Shown here piece by piece: positions 3,209 through 62,600 of a DNA stretch of 64,000 nt. Source of the stretch: Trichinella spiralis (lineage: Eukaryota > Nematoda > Enoplea > Trichinellida > Trichinellidae); NCBI GenBank assembly GCA_000181795.3, contig CM012954.1:6585205-6649204 (forward strand), given 5' to 3'. The position numbers and the translations under genes are program-made. The first letter of the stretch is position 1; each line of letters begins with the position of its first letter. Below the pieces are notes generated by a model. The model saw only the letters and a list, made by a program, of their open reading frames with translations. It had not been told where the DNA came from and made no database searches.

Positions 3209-6200
3209 ATGACAAACATTAAGAATTTGGTTCGCTATCAGTCATTTGGTTTGGTGAATATGCTTGCCGCTCGTACGACTCTTTGGTTGTTGTTTCTCGT
3301 CAACGTTGATTCAGTTTACTGCTTTGACATCACTGCATTTCCAAAAACTTTGGAAAACGTTGAAGAAGTCCATGGCGAATCCCAGAACATCCCGACTTGG
3401 ATCAACGGTATTTAAGCCTATTCAAAATTGAAAAAATATCCACAAGTTTCCATCCACATCGTTGCAGGTTATTTTGTAAGGCAATTGTGCGGTTGCGGCG
3501 GCACTGGTCTTGCAATTGAATACTATTTGGATTGTGTGGGCAGTTTAGGAATTTATCACATTAATGATGGTTCTGTCAAATATTCAAGCAGGTGAAATTC
3601 AGAAGAAGTAGAAATTATTTTCATCGTTTCTTTTCATAATTTTTTTCACAATTTCAGACCGTACAATACACGAGCTACTTACTGCCTTAAAAATGGTACC
3701 TATGATGCTCCCGCTTGGCGGACGCTTCGAAGCAGAATTGTACATAATAAATTTATGAAATCGAAAAAAAAATTTTCAACAAAATTTCAATACAATTTCA
3801 GGATGACGCAGATTACTACAAGTGTAAACGGAAAAATCGCTCTCTGACGGATGCCAATCCTAATCTTGGAATGTTCACTGTGGAAAATGATTCTGTTATT
3901 GTGCATTCAAATTTCCCTCATATGCATAAAATCAACCTGAAAAATCCGACCATCACAGATACACTAGTATTCGAAAACGAAGAAGACGACGACGACGAAA
4001 TAGTTCTGTATGATTCGGATAAGACGACCGACCCTTCAACTGGCACAGTTTGGTTCACACGTTTGACAATGCTCCGAAATGGAATAGATCATGCCCATAT
4101 TAAGTAAACAAAAGTTAGCAAATTCATTTTGTTCCATTTTCATTTCCTCAATTTTCCACATAAAAAAACGAAACGGATAAAAATCGTTTTCCTCCTTTAA
4201 ATTTTCACCAAGAGCACATAATTTCATTTAATTTAGTATTCGGCTTGTTGTTTGCCTACGTTCATCACTGCTTCGAGACGTTTCTCAAAATCAGATAAAA
4301 AAATAGAACAGTCATTTTGTCAACTTTCATGGATGCAATTTTACTGAGTAATACAAAATTCGAATCGATTCAGGAAAATGTGATCGGAAATTTAGGCAAA
4401 GTCAACACTGAATGTGTATTTGTTTTTTTTTCACTGCCATTTTTCAAATAAGGTCCATTTCTCTTTTGTAAAAATATAACATATTTTAAAAATAGCTTAA
4501 GAAATAAACAGGAAATAAATCAAATAATAAAAAAACAATTTCCATTCAAATGTTGCAACAGAGTAGGCTGTTCTAAAATAAAAAACTGATGACTGTAATT
4601 TGTCGTTTAAAAAATATGATGGATAGGAATTATAAAATAACACCTATTAGTAAATATAAACAATGGATTGAAATATGTATAATTGGGATGGTCGATTTCG
4701 GGACAAATTTTCACCGTCTAATTTTACTGGTCGTTGAACTCGCTATTTTATTGGACTTTCGTGCCGTTGTCTTATTGGTTTTCCTTGTCTAATTCCTAAT
4801 TGATTCAAACTCTTCAGTTGTGATTAGCTGCAATGTTCTTTATTTCATTGGTTCAAATATTCCATTTAGGATTACCTAACTTTAATAGTAGTGACGTGAC
4901 GGTCCAGTACCGATTTCCCTCCTGATATATAAATCTACTCCCACTTTTTGTAAATAAATTTGTTGCCTGTTGAAATTTATCAAGATTGGATGTTAACATC
5001 CGGGTGTAATGTCAGAATACCGAAAAATCTGGAATGTTGTGGCAACACTTCCAATTTCCCGGTTACAAATGGCGCTAATACTGAAGTTACGTGTTGGCTC
5101 GCAATTTCACTTAATTTTACGCATGATTTAACGAATATGCCTTTGTCAAACATTCTTCGCTTTTCGCGTCACATCACATATGTTGGTAAAAGCGATTTTA
5201 ATACAAAGGAAAAATGCACAATTGACAAATTGTTCACAGTTGCAGCTCTCAAGCTGAACCAAGGAGTAACAACTACTAAATTGTTAGCATCTGATTAATT
5301 AATTTGATTCAAATCAGCTGCAATTCGAAGCTGAATTTAAATTTAAAAATTAAAAATGATGAATGAAATGTATTTTCAGACGATATTTCTACAAAATTGA
5401 AAAAAATTCCCAAAAAATGATAAAAGTAGGCGAATATATAGTATCAACAGTATACACTGAAGACTGCAGTTGGAGAAATGGAAACTATGCATTCCTTGCA
5501 TATTCTTTGGAAGGTGTGGTTAACAGTATTGCTGTTACGGAAAATTACATTATATACTGGATGTTTCAATCAACTTTCAATCCGTGTACAATTTTGAAAA
5601 GGCCCGACGCATTTCGTATGTATAAATAAACCATTTGAAAATTCACTTTCAATATAAAATCATTTCAGCCACAGTACCACTGTTGGATAATTTTGATTTT
5701 GACTCCTCTGGCATTTTGGAAATTGTCGTTATTTCAAAGTCAGATGAAACGGTTATAATTTTCGAAGACAGTCCTTTGCAACAGTTCACCGGCCATGTGG
5801 TACAGTTTTTACTGAATAACTGATACTAACTAAATGCAGAATGCTATTCTATGGTTTACAGGTAAATGCAATGGAAACTGGAAGTGATGAAAACCTTCAG
5901 TTAACAATGGATCTGATAACACATCCTTTGAAAAATTATTACGATACCTTCGATATGGACTTTATGAGAAACCACGTAAGCTTTCATTTTATAACTTTCT
6001 ACGCACGCATAACTCGGCACTGCCCATTTTACACGAATATAATAAAAAAAGAACGTTCTATTACCTTTTGTAATTGGCATGATGAATTAATTTTCAGCAG
6101 ATTATTAATATTTTTCCATTTTGTACGGCATGCTCACTTCCTCAATTAAAACAAAGCTGTTCACAGTTAACGAAACAGTTTGTGCCATTAAGTCTACCTA

Positions 6201-7343
6201 CTGTAGATGAAGATTTTTCAAGTTAGTATATTTTCAAAAAATTTTTCAGAATTTTTTTAAATAAAATGAACTGCGTTAAATTGAACACAAATAAATAATT
6301 AAATAAATTTTTAAATAAACAGAAACAAATTTATCTTTCAGAAAATATGAAGTTTAAAATTTCAAATTGCATCAACTGTTTTCAACGTTTAATATTTTTA
6401 AGTGCTTTCAGTTTAAAAATAATGAATTTTAGGGATATATGAAAGTTAATTGTTCCACGTGGATGATTCGATATATTTTGGAACCGTCCGCTATGTATTT
6501 GAGTCGCATAACACTTCATGACCCTGTTGATGAGTTCGTTGATTTTCCAGTGATCAATCCTTCGTATTACAACAATCCAAATTATTCTATAATCTACGCG
6601 CAGGCGACTTCTTTTAATCGTATTACACGCATCAAAAAAGTAATGATACTGATGATATGCTTTGCTTTGATTTCTTGTTTTCATGTTTTAAAATTTACCA
6701 CTTTACGGTTAGTTTGTAATAAAAGACCACGAAGTAACAAATGTACTTAGTTGGAAGCCACGAGAAGCTAATCTTCTCCCGTACGGAATGACATTTTTGA
6801 AGCATCCAGAGTCTCGTTTTGAAGATGATGGTGTGCTGCTGTTAACAGCGACTGTGACGAATGAAGAGAAAAAAAGTATTACTTTGATTTTTCTTCTTAC
6901 CTATCAATTTATCAACAACAAATGACAAATGGAGTGATATTTTCCTGTCATTTTGTCGGGAAAATGTAAAAAAATACATATATTTCGATTTTCAGTATTG
7001 AATTTAAATTTTTGGCTAACAGATTTTTTTCTGTCGTGGCAGTTTTGAAGCAATCTGACAGATAATGTTGTCGGATAATGGTGTGTTTTTCTCAGGTGTA
7101 CTGATTGTTTTGAACGCCACAACTATGGAAGAAATCGGCCGAAGCGTTTTGCCCGTTACAGCACCGTTCGGTTACAGAGCGATGTTCATTTACAGCAGCA
7201 GTTCATCGGCCATGTATTCGGTTTTCAACTTCTACACTACAATCTTGGTCACGCTCTGCTGGTTTATGTCCGTGGTGGTTCCAACTTTACCATCTGTTCA
7301 ACAGGGGATGATAATTGGCCAAAAACTGATGTATCCCCAATAA
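3209..7343 (+). CDS. Secreted or anchored carotenoid-oxygenase (RPE65/BCO) family protein lacking the iron ligands
   Basis: Exons read as 3209–3407, 3468–3591, 3658–3739, 3802–4103, 5380–5615, 5669–5796, 5862–5975, 6098–6202, about 6433–6630, about 6765–6875 and 7096–7343; the junctions between 6202 and 6875 are uncertain. Family landmarks appear in order: PTWINGYF, the FDG-like block YYLDCVGSLGIYHINDG, TDPSTGTVW, NSIAVTENYIIY, TGHVNAME, the FPxIN block DFPVINPSYY, and FEDDGVLLL…VLNATTMEEIGRS…APFGYRAMF. The family cleaves carotenoid or retinyl substrates with Fe(II) held by four His. Here all four positions are changed: Asp or Lys, Asn, Gly and Arg. The N-terminus has a signal-like hydrophobic run (TTLWLLFLVNVDSVYC) and the C-terminus a hydrophobic segment (TTILVTLCWFMSVVVPTL), unlike the usual cytosolic enzymes. 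Estimated length is about 600 residues against 500–550 usual. Probably a non-catalytic paralogue; its role is unknown. Confidence 0.8.
4104..5379 (+). other. 1.27-kb intron 4 of the carotenoid-oxygenase-like gene, with promoter-like motifs and an open frame
   Basis: Its donor (GTAAAC at 4104) and acceptor (TTTTCAG ending at 5379) join two homologous exons in frame, but it is about 20 times longer than the gene's other early introns. It holds four ATTGG motifs (4682, 4750, 4774, 4847), a TATATAAA stretch near 4925–4932, and an open frame with ATG at 4990 and stop at 5298. That frame encodes 102 residues with several Cys and N-glycosylation sequons. Whether it is a nested gene or a relic exon cannot be decided from sequence alone. 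Confidence 0.4.
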
Positions 7344-7812: not shown

Positions 7813-8562
7813 CTACTCGTAATTGACCGTAGTAGTTTTGAAGAGGGACAGTTCGTGGTAGGGCGGCGGCGGTTCGTCGGCAACATTTTGACTACTGTAC
7901 GGCGGCGGTGGATCTGTATACGGGTGTGGTTGCTGGCGTGGTGTGGCAACAGTGTGCGACGATTCGTCCGGCAGCTGGTGGTGGTGACGATGGTCCACGG
8001 TCGACCGACGCCGGCGCCGGCGTCGCTTCAACTCGCCGAAGCAGGCTAGCAGCAAGCCGAAAAAGCAGGCGTTGACGAACGCGGCGGCGAACAGCGAACT
8101 GAAGCTCGCCCGTCGTTCGCGGCCGTCCAATTCCGGATTGAGCATCCTGGTGGCGGCGAGAACCAGGCACAGGATCACTTTCAAGCCGAGCAAGCTCATC
8201 TCGGGCAACAGGAGCCACGGTCGACCGCCGCAAACACCGACAAGCATGCAGGCGACGATCATCACGTGCAACAAGGCGCTGCTGACCGCCGACGCGGCCC
8301 CTTGGGCCAGGGTCTGTTCAGAGTTGAGCCGGCGCCAGGTGAATTCTTGTTCGTCCAAATAGTCGACGTAGGCTAGCAGTGGAGACGGGTCGACTGAATC
8401 ATCTTTCCAATAAATGAATACCACTTGAAGCAAACTGCCGGCTATTTGCAACAAGCCAACCAAAACGGCCAGACGTACCACTGAACAACACCAGCATGGT
8501 CCTCGAGGTTTTGCCAATTCGATTTCAACTGCCTGTTGTTGTTGTTGTTGTTGTTGTTGCAT
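7813..8562 (-). CDS. LAPTM4-like four-helix membrane protein with two PPPPY motifs
   Basis: A single-exon frame of 249 residues from the ATG complementary to 8560–8562 to TAG at 7813–7815. It opens with a Gln run (residues 2–10), then a Cys pair motif (PCWCCSVVR). Four hydrophobic segments follow at roughly residues 27–48, 88–112, 116–138 and 158–178. The cytosolic tail has a run of seven Arg (KRRRRRRRS) and two PPPPY motifs (DPPPPYSS and EPPPPYHEL). LAPTM4 proteins have the same layout of four helices and C-terminal PY motifs, through which they recruit NEDD4-type ubiquitin ligases for late endosomal sorting. The helices are too diverged for certainty; another tetraspan PY adaptor is possible. 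Base composition is much richer in G+C than the flanks and there is no intron, unlike nearly every other gene here. Confidence 0.65.
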   Translation of the reverse strand: MQQQQQQQQQAVEIELAKPRGPCWCCSVVRLAVLVGLLQIAGSLLQVVFIYWKDDSVDPSPLLAYVDYLDEQEFTWRRLNSEQTLAQGAASAVSSALLHVMIVACMLVGVCGGRPWLLLPEMSLLGLKVILCLVLAATRMLNPELDGRERRASFSSLFAAAFVNACFFGLLLACFGELKRRRRRRRSTVDHRHHHQLPDESSHTVATPRQQPHPYTDPPPPYSSQNVADEPPPPYHELSLFKTTTVNYE

Positions 8563-9414
8563 TGTCAACAATAAACAAACAAACAAACAAACAAATAATC
8601 AAAACCACAAGTGGGGTAATTATAAAAACAGATTAGCACAGAACCACCACAAACGATCTCTTGTCGTTCAACAAGCAGCAGCAGCAGCAGAAGCAGCAGC
8701 AGTTTGTTTTATCGACCAGCCTGTTTCACCAGTGCAAAAACAAGACAATTTTCCAACTTTTACCAACCACGCCCCGAGGCCAAATGAAGCCAGTTTGCTT
8801 GGAAAATTTGCACCAATCGCTGGGCAGTTTCTTTTCTTACAAAAACAACAAATCGAAAGTACAACTGGACCGTAAAATGAGCAACATGTGCGTGTTCCCT
8901 TTCTCCACCGCCGCCCCCCCCTCCTCCTCCTCTTCGTATGATGACGTAAAAGCTACTGTTCAACCAGCACTTACTTCTTCACGGCTTGAAAATACATTAT
9001 ACATTCTTAACCGAAAACAAATTTGATGTAATTTTCATTTTTTTTCTTATATTTTTGCTGTTGTTTAAAAATATAAAACATCGATAAAACGTAAGCGTGT
9101 TACGCCAATTTCAAAAAAATCACAACGAGATGCGGTCCAACCGCGAGCATATGACATCATCAATCTTATAAACAGAGAAAAAAACGAATTACATAAATAT
9201 ATTTAAAAAACAAAAAATGAAAAGCTGCGCACTGTGAACCGAGTAAAAAAACTTAAAGCTTGCACTGTGGATAATTCAAATGTGAAAGAAAACTGAACTG
9301 TATTACTCGTCAATATCTTCCATCATCATCATCATCCACATCTTTTTCTTTTTTGAAAACAAATTATACAGAAAGAAATGTAATTTCCACATTCCTTCTT
9401 AAGCTTTTCGTGTG
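8563..9414. other. Spacer between the LAPTM4-like gene and the end of Raf
   Basis: No gene is recognised. The sequence holds a CAAA tract just upstream of the LAPTM4-like ATG (8571–8595), a CAG/AAG tract near 8672–8702, a C/T-rich tract near 8906–8935 and a short CAT repeat near 9320. It should contain the LAPTM4-like promoter and 5' UTR plus the Raf 3' UTR, both on the minus strand. Confidence 0.4.
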
Positions 9415-23427: not shown

Positions 23428-24367
23428 TTAATTTTTCCAGAAATTTGGATCCGCCGCCAGTCTCCGTGAAAATTGTTCGTACCAGCCTTGTACAACGTTC
23501 ACCGGAACATACGGCCCGTCAGCTTTGTTTACGATGTCTGCTTTATTAGCCGAAAATGACAAAGCATAGTTGAAAAAACTCTGAAGCATGTTTTGGGTGA
23601 ATTGCACAAAGTTGTCTGTTATCGGTGGATCCAGATCACCCACCGGCGTCAATGAAGTGATTGATGTAAGCGGTTCCACCGATATACCAAGCTGAACCAC
23701 AGTACTTGACTTGTTAAAACCCACAAAACCACCAGGTACGTTTGTTTGTGGAACTACTGAAAAAAATAATACTTGCCTTCTTCAGAAATTCATACTAATT
23801 GTAAATAGTGGATAAATTTTAAAAATTGTTATCATTATCTTACTCATTGACTTCAGCTTTGTCACTCTAAAAATAGCGCTCGGTTTTTCATTGCTTACAA
23901 AGCCTAGGTATAGCCAAGCTTGTTGTCCATCAGAGGAAGGATAGCACAGATATACTAAAAGCACATGTTAAGAATTTGAATTAGCACCTTTTGAAAGTTT
24001 CTACCAGCTCCACCATAGCCTTGTGGAAATGCTACTTGCCCTGTTAGCAAAACGATAATGTGGTTAACATGTTCGGCGTCGTCTAAACTGAAAACGCAAT
24101 GGGTGTCGTCAATTTGAGTGAAATTGGTTTGCACCTGAAACAACATTCAGTTGCTATACTCTCGAGGAATAGAACTGTTAATTAGGTTATATAATGTGAA
24201 ACAATACAGTTGAAGTTTATTTGCAGAAAACTCTATTGTATAATAATGCTTAACGTTCAGAATTTCTATCATGATAATTTCATTTTATTTTTATATTTAT
24301 ATACGTGAAATTTTATTTCTAATATTTATGAGCTTACCGCTCTTCCTGGTACAAGAACACCGAACAT
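23428..24367 (-). CDS. hikeshi: Hikeshi, nuclear import carrier of Hsp70
   Basis: Four exons (24338–24367, 24005–24134, 23844–23954, 23428–23756) sum to 600 bases, giving 199 residues against 197 in human. The N-terminus MFGVLVPGRA–VQTNF is followed by HIIVLLTGQVAFPQGYGGA, VYLCYPSSDGQQAW, LGFVSNEKPSAIFRVTKLK, VQLGISVEPL, FTQFTQ-like FVQFTQNMLQSFFNYA and the C-terminal WYEQFSRRLAADPNFWKN. Every conserved block of the family is present. Hikeshi binds nucleoporin FG repeats and carries ATP-bound Hsp70 into the nucleus during heat stress. The protein looks complete. Confidence 0.95.
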
Positions 24368-57199: not shown

Positions 57200-57995
57200 A
57201 TGCGGTAAGTATTGTATATTTTATCTAGTTTATTGAACAATTAGGCACAAATAACGACAAAATTTACATTTTTTATTGAAAAACATAATTTAAAATTGCC
57301 TAATCTTTGTCAGACGTTCAACATCATTGTATAAATATGCACTGCTTGTTATCGATATGCAAGAAGAGTTTCGTCAATGTGCAGTGAAAATTGTTGATCA
57401 ACTGAACAAGACGATTCAAATTTGTCGTCAAAACAACGTGCCAGTAATCTTTACCCAACATGGACATCGTCAGCCGTCTATTGATGCTGGTCAGCTTGTA
57501 GAGCAGTGGGGATCGGTTATTGAGTACGGTTCCAAAGAATGGCAAATGATGCCCGAAGTGAACCTCTTGCCTACTGATTATATAATTTCTGAAAAACGAC
57601 GTTACGACGCTTTCTATGGAACTGTTCTCGGCGAGATGTTGCGCAAATTGAACGTACGTATAAAACAATTCATTATTGTTTGGTGTGTGTTTTGAAAAAC
57701 GACTTTCAAATTTGCATTCATGTCACTTTCAACAACAACAACAACAACAACAATTTTAAATTGATATAATAATCAAATTTAGGTTAATACTTTGGCAATT
57801 TCCGGAGTGATGACAAATCTCTGTTGCGAAACTACTACCAGAAGTGCGTTTGTACGTGACTTCCGGGTGTTCTTTTTAAGTGATGGAACGGCGACAGTTT
57901 CTGAAGAAATGCACAACGCTTCTTTGTTGAATATTTCTTACGGTTTTGCGACAGTATTAACGTGCGATGAATTTTGCGACATTATTCATAAATAA
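57200..57995 (+). CDS. Isochorismatase-family cysteine hydrolase
   Basis: Three exons (57200–57204, 57314–57653, 57783–57995) total 558 bases, giving 185 residues. The first carries only ATGCG before a strong GTAAGT donor. The catalytic triad of the family is visible: Asp in [10 protein letters not shown], Lys in [10 protein letters not shown], and Cys in [17 protein letters not shown]. The fold strands between them ([29 protein letters not shown]) are intact and the length is normal for a single-domain member. The family includes isochorismatases, nicotinamidases and N-carbamoyl hydrolases; the substrate here cannot be told. Probably cytosolic, since no signal peptide is visible. The DAFYGTxL and R-x-A-F-x-R-D-F patterns are typical of bacterial members. 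The stop codon lies inside AATAAA. Confidence 0.88.
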
Positions 57996-59664: not shown

Positions 59665-62600
59665 ATGAAAATGACCGATCCAGTTTGGAATTCATCCCGA
59701 CCAGCTGGTTCACATCCTGCTAATCTTTTCTTGAATAATCCACCCAATTTTGCGATGCCTTCTGCCCAGTTACAGCCATCACCGGCAAATTTTTTACCGC
59801 CACCTTTGTCAAGTGTAAATACGGCTGTACCGAAGTCTACAACTTCATTGGTGCAAGGATCGGTGCCATCATTTCCAGTGCCTTCTGGTTTACCGTCCAT
59901 GAATGGACTAGTACAGCCTCCTAATTTATCTACTTTTCGGTCAGAAGATTTATTTACGGATGTAGCATTATCTCCTCCTGTAACTGCTGCACCGGTAACA
60001 AATGTTGCTCAGGCAGTATCGAATTTTTCTTCTTCAACCGTTGGCAAAACCTTCCTGCCTTTGCTTCCATTGCCGGATGATCCACATTTTGTAAAGCAAC
60101 ATGTACCACCTCCGACTGTGCATCCATCTGGCAGAAGTATGAGTTCTGTTTCAGGTCATGGAATTGGCAGTTCACCAATCTCAGAAGTGCAGCACAATTT
60201 TGCAGGTTTACAATATCCAATTTCTTCACCCATTAATGCCATTATTCCGGATATGGGGAATTTAAACTTGAATGCCGTATGAACTTATTTGAACATTCAT
60301 TTATGAGTTATCTTTTGTGAAAATTTAAAAATTCGCAGGTTTCACCAACTCGTACAGCAGTAGTAGATCTTTTGCAAGAAAAGCACCCTATTCCATCGGA
60401 ATGTCTCGAACCTCCGGTTGTTACCCTGCCTAGACCGTATGATCGTGATTTGGAGAGCAGTGACTCAAGGTGAAATTCTGTTGTTGAAATTGCATCAGTT
60501 GTGCATCATATGGATATACATTTTTTTTCCATATTAGCGTTTTACGGTGCACACTTGCTGCAGTGCCAGAATCGCCATCGGTTTTGAAAAAATGTCGCCT
60601 GCCATTGGGTTTAATAGTGCATCCTTTTAAAGATTTGAAAAAATTGGTCATGGTCGAAACGTCAATAATTGTCCGATGTCGTAGTTGTCGGGCTTACATA
60701 AATCCATATGTTCGTTTTGTGGACCGTAACTGGAACTGCAATATATGCGGTCGCGCAAATCGTTGTAAATAATAGATTTTCTCTTTTTTATTTTAATTTA
60801 AATAATATAACAAACAAACATTAATAATTTTAAAAGAAAGTTTTTAAAAAAATCTTTCCCATAGTACCGGATGAATTTTATTATAATCCGCAAACTGGCA
60901 AAGTTGGCGATCCTAGTCTGCGTCCTGAAATTCAGAATTCATCAATCGAATTCATCGCCCCTGCCCATGAATATGAAGTAAGAAAATTTGAAATTGCAAT
61001 TATTTGTGTTGCTTTTTTTCTGATTTTTTGTTTTTTTTGTCATTACGATAGAATCGACCTCCGCAGCCTGCTTGTTACATTTTTATTTTGGATGTTTCAG
61101 CACGCGCTGTACAATCAGGTACATGTTTCTTTTCTTTTTTTTTCTACAACATATGCATGACATAATTTAAAGATGTTGGAAAATATTGTTTTCAGTAATC
61201 TAAGCAATTTATCTGTTTATTTATTTTAAATGAAATTATTTTTTTATGAAAGTTAAAAGTGAATTTAGAACTAGACAAGAAGGTCAGAAGAAATTTATAA
61301 TGCATGTATAGCGTAAGAGATGCGTATAGATAGATGCAGTGCATGTTAGATATCTTTCATTCGCAAATCTATGTTGTGATGGTGAAAATATAGGTTTTAT
61401 AGCCTTACAAAGTGAATTTTATCTTGTTGGCAGTGAATATGATGGTTTTCTTTTTTCTTTTCTTTTTATTTATCAAGTTACTTGCTTATTTTCAGGCTAT
61501 CTTGTAATATTTCGAGATGTGCTCTTAGAAAGTTTACGATTGCTTCCTGGAGATAATCGAACCATAATCGGTTTCATTGCAGTTGATTCCTTTTTGCATT
61601 TTTTTCAGCTGAGAGAAAATTTGAAACCCAAAGAATTTGTCGTTTCTGATGTCGATGGTTTGTAGGCATTTGTTTATTTGTCTGTCTGGTTTGGAAGGTT
61701 TGGTGGTATATTCTAATTTTTGAATGTACATTTTTACAGATATCGTTATGCCATCCAAAAGTTTTCTCTTATTTTACCTCGACGACTCAATTAATGTTAG
61801 TTCGTTTGTGTGTGGTTGTTTTAATTTTTAATCATCTCTTGTTGTGCGTTTAGGCTGTGGAAAGCTTTTTGAACGACTTGCCCGAACGTTTCGCTGATAA
61901 CACTGATCCGAAATGTGCCCTCGGCTCAGCCATTACGGCCGGATTCGAATTAATCGTAAGAAATGAACAATGGCTAATCAGCTATATATATATATATATA
62001 TTTTATGCCGCTTTTTCTTTAGGCTACAATTGGCGGACGTTTGACCGTTTTTCAAACAGTTCTACCGGACATTGGTAATGGTTCGCTGACAAGTCGTGAA
62101 GATCCCAATTTAAGAGCTGCAAAAGTTTGCTCGTTTATTTTCATTTTACTTTTGCATACAATAAACATCAAGTCCATTATTCAGGAAGTGACCAACATGA
62201 GTGCAGCGTCGGATTTTTACAAAAATCTGGCTTTGAAATGCACCGAAAGGATGATCGCTGTGGATCTGTTTGTTCTGGGTGACTCATACGTCGATTTGGC
62301 TACAGTTTGTAAGAAATTTGAGTTTCATCAGTTTAATGCAGTTTATTCTTTTGAATTCAATTGCTTATGTAATATACTTTTAAGGTGATGTGGTGACATT
62401 CAGCTCGGGTAGTGTTTATTATTATCCAAATTTTGATGCTTGCTCCAATCCTATGGAAATGGAACGTTTCCGGTCCGATTTGGGACGCTATTTGCGCCGT
62501 AAGATTGGCTTTGAAGCGGTGATGCGAATTCGACTATCTTACGGTATGCTTTTTGTGTAAAACCGCGCCAAATAGAATCCACTGGTTGATTGATTGTCTT

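Follow-up and report, generated by a model that had tools for sequence, protein, structure and literature searches.

What becomes of a metal enzyme's protein once the residues that hold the metal have gone? The question is raised by a spliced gene at positions 3209-7343 on the forward strand of a 64,000-nucleotide stretch of Trichinella spiralis DNA (the window, in which all positions below are counted), corresponding to C2:6585205-6649204 of the 53.1 Mb, 14-contig genome that we searched. The gene is homologous to the carotenoid cleavage oxygenase (CCO) family, whose four-histidine iron site is called 'absolutely conserved' in PMC8866865 and attributed to 'all CCO enzymes' in PMC5643517; it carries substitutions in that site and is conserved, with them, across species. 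As judged by alignment, the iron site is broken genus-wide in the Trichinella proteins examined, and the best explanation of the whole, in our view a reasonably probable one, is a secreted, probably membrane-tethered, fast-evolving pseudoenzyme. If true, loss of the iron site throughout a genus with the fold kept would provide a natural pseudoenzyme of a family that is described only as metal enzymes in the literature searched, and would open the way to asking what the propeller does without its metal; in Trichinella, the gene would mark a fast-changing, probably exported protein. No description of the gene was found in the literature searched, and the word 'carotene' is absent from the main texts, as distinct from the supplements, of PMC4740406, PMC13334664, PMC11242134 and PMC7846577.

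Family membership and gene model

Ten exons joined in consistent phase through usable splice sites encode 601 amino acids that match PF03055 at 103.8 bits against a cut-off of 27 (E 1.5e-29), residues 60-550 covering positions 20-467 of the 469 in the profile, and hhalign of the Trichinella orthologues against family relatives gives a probability of 99.8 over 439 columns. By homology, the spliced gene is real and is a member of the CCO superfamily, with chance excluded on these scores. The exons do not reveal this singly, since none of the nine (of ten) that were scanned as stop-to-stop frames matches PF03055 alone. The first-pass annotation had recognised the family correctly and divided the gene into eleven exons, where phase, orthologues and Pfam score favour ten.

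The difference lies downstream of exon 7 (5862-5975, placed by phase), which ends in phase 0 and can be joined directly to exon 8 (6433-6639), which starts in phase 0. An additional exon near 6098-6221 could be spliced only with an internal acceptor that is weak (6446) or a donor that is poor (6203), and among the five orthologue models that cover the place it is missing from four (P0001, P0003, P0004 and P0005) and present in P0002; the Pfam score is 99.5 bits with it and 103.8 bits without, and the eleven-exon model was rejected. A candidate frameshift in exon 8, where the neighbouring frame looks RPE65-like by eye, was dropped because P0003, P0004 and P0005 all keep the ET..RY.LEP frame.

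The choice of donor for exon 6 (5669-5799) decides the third ligand. The donor at 5797 (GTGGTA) yields the TGHVNAME of the earlier reading, and that at 5800 (GTACAG), one of the eight of nine donors in the ten-exon model with A at +3, yields TGHVVNAME, with one valine more and His357 (5794-5796) in the ligand-3 column. The orthologues share this second spacing, as HVVNAM in T. sp. T8 and YVINA in T. papuae, T. zimbabwensis and T. pseudospiralis, which makes 5799 the most likely end of exon 6. At the 5' end, frame and phase define exon 1 (3209-3407), with a start at Met 3209 or, more likely, at Met18 (3260), the same Met at which the T. nativa model begins. Exon 2 (3468-3591), supported by phase and alignment, reads GYFVRQLCGCGG... 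and has LDC where the family has FDG; exon 3 (3658-3739) is supported by phase and orthologues.

The iron site

Ligand positions were compared in an alignment of 90 rows (A3), made up of six of the seven Trichinella homologues (P0002 excluded) and 84 of the 120 family matches listed from 2370. Ligand 2 is Asn in all four Trichinella rows that cover the column (Asn284 in the window, 5522-5524, in exon 5, 5380-5615) versus His in 83 of the 84 other members, the last having a gap, and ligand 4 is Arg or Lys in all four rows that cover it (Arg547, 7176-7178, in exon 10, 7096-7343, which ends in the stop codon) versus His in 84/84. Ligand 3 is kept in the window as His357; it is also His in T8 and in 84/84 of the others, and Tyr in the non-encapsulated T. 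papuae, T. pseudospiralis and T. zimbabwensis. When Trichinella is left out of the profile of relatives, posterior values for the alignment of ligands 2, 3 and 4 are high. The window protein lacks the four-His set, with Asn284, His357 and Arg547 at these three positions.

Ligand 1 falls in exon 4 (3802-4103), in the region YDSDKTTDPSTG (4009-4044), where the window has no His in any register tried. Transferring the MAFFT and hhalign alignments of the orthologues to the window gives Pro213 as the equivalent residue; MAFFT L-INS-i gives Met (a column of Met or Ile), and anchoring by eye on the following TG gives Asp208 or Lys209. The MAFFT column holds His in T8 (P0001 residue 198) and Asp in T. 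papuae and T. pseudospiralis, hhalign agreeing for T. papuae; T. nativa P0006 reads TDHSTG like T8, and in the MAFFT/hhalign register both carry His where the window has Pro213.

The second shell is altered as well. The acid behind ligand 2, Glu or Asp in 84/84 of the other members, is Asn in 5/5 Trichinella rows (Asn172 in the window, 3910-3912, exon 4), and the Glu behind ligand 4, also present in 84/84, is Gly in T8 and the window (Gly490, 6785-6787, in exon 9, 6713-6875) and Gln in T. zimbabwensis. At the third position, T8 and the window (Asp433) have Asp, T. papuae has Gln, and T. pseudospiralis and T. zimbabwensis have Glu, so that the window retains an acid at one of the three second-shell positions.

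These losses do not look like plain divergence. Defining near-invariant columns as those with one residue in at least 95% of the 84 non-Trichinella members gives 27 columns, and T8, T. papuae and T. pseudospiralis jointly keep none of the five metal-shell columns versus 15 of the 22 others (Fisher p 0.0098, which serves only as a guide, since retention is demanded in all three rows and the rows are related). The C-terminal half taken by itself gives 0/4 versus 13/19 (p 0.024). Singly, T8 keeps two of the five metal-shell columns and T. papuae and T. pseudospiralis one each, and of the seven non-metal columns lost, three are no more than two residues away from a ligand.

The loss of a working four-His iron centre, proposed from the window, is thus upheld by Asn at ligand 2 and Arg or Lys at ligand 4 in every Trichinella protein covering them. 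The claims that all four His were replaced, and in a coordinated manner, are not: the third is His357 with the better, orthologue-backed donor of exon 6, and because the residue at ligand 3 varies by lineage, as does that at ligand 1 in one register (His in T8 and T. nativa), the losses look stepwise. With the Fe(II) site lost, family-type iron-dependent oxygenase cleavage is very probably impossible.

Orthologues

Homologue searches with Trichinella queries, which retain only candidates sharing exact words with the query, returned 5 and 7 proteins, all from Trichinella. All are predicted proteins: those of T8, T. papuae and T. pseudospiralis are full-length, that of T. spiralis covers the gene from exon 5 onwards, and T. 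zimbabwensis and T. nativa are represented in pieces; P0001 represents a cluster of 17 members that were not inspected singly. In the exons common to both, P0002, the deposited T. spiralis protein, resembles the window by eye. Most iron ligands are missing from P0003, P0004 and P0005, so that names under which they were deposited, such as 'Carotenoid cleavage dioxygenase 8-like protein A, chloroplastic' and 'Retinoid isomerohydrolase', mislead.

Within the T. spiralis genome, the window protein and P0004 as queries match only the 3209-7343 locus. PF03055, BCOLg, RPE65 and a BCMO-1 fragment match nothing in that genome, and as these queries miss the 3209-7343 locus too, the absence of a canonical enzyme is not implied.

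Leader, tail and predicted fold

Hydropathy and AlphaFold helices both favour, indirectly, the signal-like and hydrophobic segments that had been noticed at the two ends of the protein. The signal-like segment MLAARTTLWLLFLVNVDSVYC (about M18-C38; 3260-3322, exon 1) has a hydropathy of 1.66 for residues 13-31, and this leader (about residues 13-31) and the C-terminal stretch (residues about 555-583; 7200-7286, exon 10) rank first and second in hydrophobicity when separate 19-residue segments of the protein are compared. AlphaFold draws the tail as one long helix (residues 554-582 in T8) and gives an N-terminal helix at a predicted local distance difference test score (pLDDT) of 55-64. Both the leader and the C-terminal hydrophobic helix are conserved among the Trichinella proteins.

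Six cysteines outside the tail are kept in 4/4 Trichinella rows, the window included, and in 0/19 relatives, taken here as the 19 non-Trichinella rows of the tree described below; their even number would fit disulphides. In the same comparison, several tunnel positions of BCMO-1 are still hydrophobic in Trichinella and F307 has become Gly or Asn, which supports no inference about binding. The predicted structure is a seven-bladed propeller, and retention of that fold is borne out as a prediction only.

Kinship and known systems

A search of PDB sequences with the Trichinella profile ranked BCOLg first among animal chains (71.5 bits); NinaB scored 53.4, RPE65 47.7 and BCMO-1 45.9. In the best tree (23 rows, 19 of them drawn from 127 proteins found; a further alignment, A5, held 23 of the listed family matches and RPE65), Trichinella lies on the BCOL side at 89/86, not starred, with rival groupings not rejected (p values of the approximately unbiased test, p-AU, 0.125-0.38), at the end of a stem branch of 2.85 changes per column. 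The placement with BCOL is weak; descent from that secreted subfamily is a possibility, and we do not file the gene as BCOL.

The BCOL proteins of lancelets, molluscs and annelids (BCOLg, PDB 9plv) resemble the Trichinella protein in family homology, in having a leader (in Trichinella a hydrophobic, signal-like one, as judged by hydropathy and inspection) and in lacking a PDPC(K) motif (by eye, there is no PDPC in the window protein, P0001, P0003 or P0004); unlike it, the aligned relatives keep the ligand His. What is special to the Trichinella protein is the tail and the cysteines, the tails of relatives measuring 4-19 residues after the last ligand (in six of 11 printed relatives; the script missed the motif in the other five). 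A leader is already familiar from BCOL proteins, and the earlier assumption that family members in animals are cytosolic or peripherally bound is not supported: most BCOL proteins have predicted signal peptides (19 of 20 rows marked S in Table 1 of PMC5643517), lancelet BCOLg is partly secreted from HEK293F cells (PMC7221588), and the export of a family member is not new.

The nematode family members BCMO-1 and BCMO-2 of C. elegans (PDB 7wh0 and 7wh1) score 45.9 and 45.2 bits with the Trichinella profile, below BCOLg. According to PMC8866865, carotene cleavage was not detected for them either and, unlike the Trichinella protein, they bind iron and have the four His and three Glu intact. The Nitrosotalea devanaterra CCD (PDB 6vcf) differs in being archaeal with a complete iron site, and its close relative P0102 has no leader. 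RPE65 and NinaB share the predicted fold, NinaB standing first in the Foldseek ranking, at a low identity of 15-19%, and RPE65 differs in its intact four-His iron centre. The four-His iron centre of NinaB is likewise intact. BCOLg is not among the fold matches listed, which carries no weight.

Interpretation and alternatives

Taken together, these results would be accounted for by a Trichinella protein that derives from an animal CCO, perhaps a member of the secreted BCOL subfamily, and has evolved very fast; it would enter the secretory pathway through its putative N-terminal signal, would probably be held at a membrane by the C-terminal hydrophobic helix or a glycosylphosphatidylinositol (GPI) signal, and is predicted to have kept the seven-bladed propeller and not the Fe(II) site. 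Ligands 2 and 4 would have become Asn and Arg/Lys before the sampled species split, and ligands 1 and 3 would vary by lineage; the split between encapsulated and non-encapsulated Trichinella is put at about 21 million years ago (PMC4740406). That the frame, the fold landmarks, the cysteines and the tail have been kept speaks for a working protein, most likely an extracellular or surface protein that acts by binding; that it binds a carotenoid or lipid, and which ligand that might be, is a guess.

Several observations weigh against this explanation. The orthologues are predicted gene models that may have skipped stops and are mutually inconsistent in places; P0002, for instance, reads HVVQMLFYGLQVNAM through the exon-6 donor region, and it starts inside the repeat of intron 4, without exons 1 to 4 of the ten-exon model, with a false N-terminus supplied by that repeat. 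T. papuae and T. pseudospiralis retain the Glu behind ligand 4, the register of ligand 1 is unsure, and the tree leaves rival groupings standing. The propeller model leans on the 84 relatives in its alignment, and prediction from the six Trichinella rows alone failed (pLDDT 40.2; predicted template modelling score, pTM, 0.35). Finally, identity between the two Trichinella clades is 46 to 53%, a raw figure, uncalibrated by a control gene; it argues for fast change or weak constraint, and could reflect relaxed constraint.

The last point leads to the most serious rival, namely that the function has been lost and the gene is drifting under relaxed selection, the lost ligands being the first damage and the frame too young, or the models too forgiving, for stops to appear. 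Such decay, which we regard as rather unlikely, would suit the low identity between clades, the variation by lineage at ligands 1 and 3 and the inconsistency of the published models, but it sits poorly with an open, in-phase series of ten exons whose splice sites are usable, predicted proteins in six Trichinella taxa across a split of about 21 million years, the 15 of 22 non-metal near-invariant columns retained, and the conserved six Cys and C-terminal stretch. The earlier proposal of selection rather than decay therefore stands in part: presence throughout the genus argues for a kept protein, and relaxed decay is still a serious rival.

Unlikely, too, is the bolder view that the metal-free propeller serves as a dedicated surface or secreted binding protein of the parasite, on a lasting pseudoenzyme branch, in which case the old substrate tunnel might hold a host retinoid, carotenoid or other lipid, or the outer face of the propeller might meet host molecules. 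It is improbable that the protein is still a metal enzyme with altered coordination (e.g. His357 with an acidic neighbour), possibly of another metal: the ligand-3 His of the window and T8, and the ligand-1 His that one register gives in T8 and T. nativa, would suit it, but a basic residue occupies ligand 4 in all rows covering the column, three species have Tyr instead of His at ligand 3, and the acid behind ligand 2 is Asn in 5/5 rows. A wrong gene model whose true exons restore the His is extremely improbable, for although splice choice did alter the third block, ligands 2 and 4 lie inside exons, distant from splice sites, with the same residue class in all orthologues covering them.

Intron 4 and the surrounding region

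Intron 4 contains a dispersed genomic repeat (4681-5309, no strand assigned), which accounts for much of its length. Scoring 40 of 316 candidates elsewhere in the genome gave at least 62 further matches to it, 73-95% identical, on contigs C1 and C3; some of these are pieces of one copy. The neighbourhood was sampled through 20 open frames searched against Pfam and ten frames of an earlier scan; scans for tRNA and Rfam gave no match. Domain matches were obtained to isochorismatase (57294-57695, forward strand), to a Hikeshi-like C-terminal domain (23428-23781, reverse strand) and to the Sec23/Sec24 trunk (62023-62388, forward strand), and no link to carotenoid metabolism is seen in these three frames. 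Directly downstream of the gene and convergent with it, a 261-amino-acid open frame (7813-8598, reverse strand) with sub-threshold Pfam matches only has, by eye, several hydrophobic segments and a Pro/Tyr-rich C-terminal tail.
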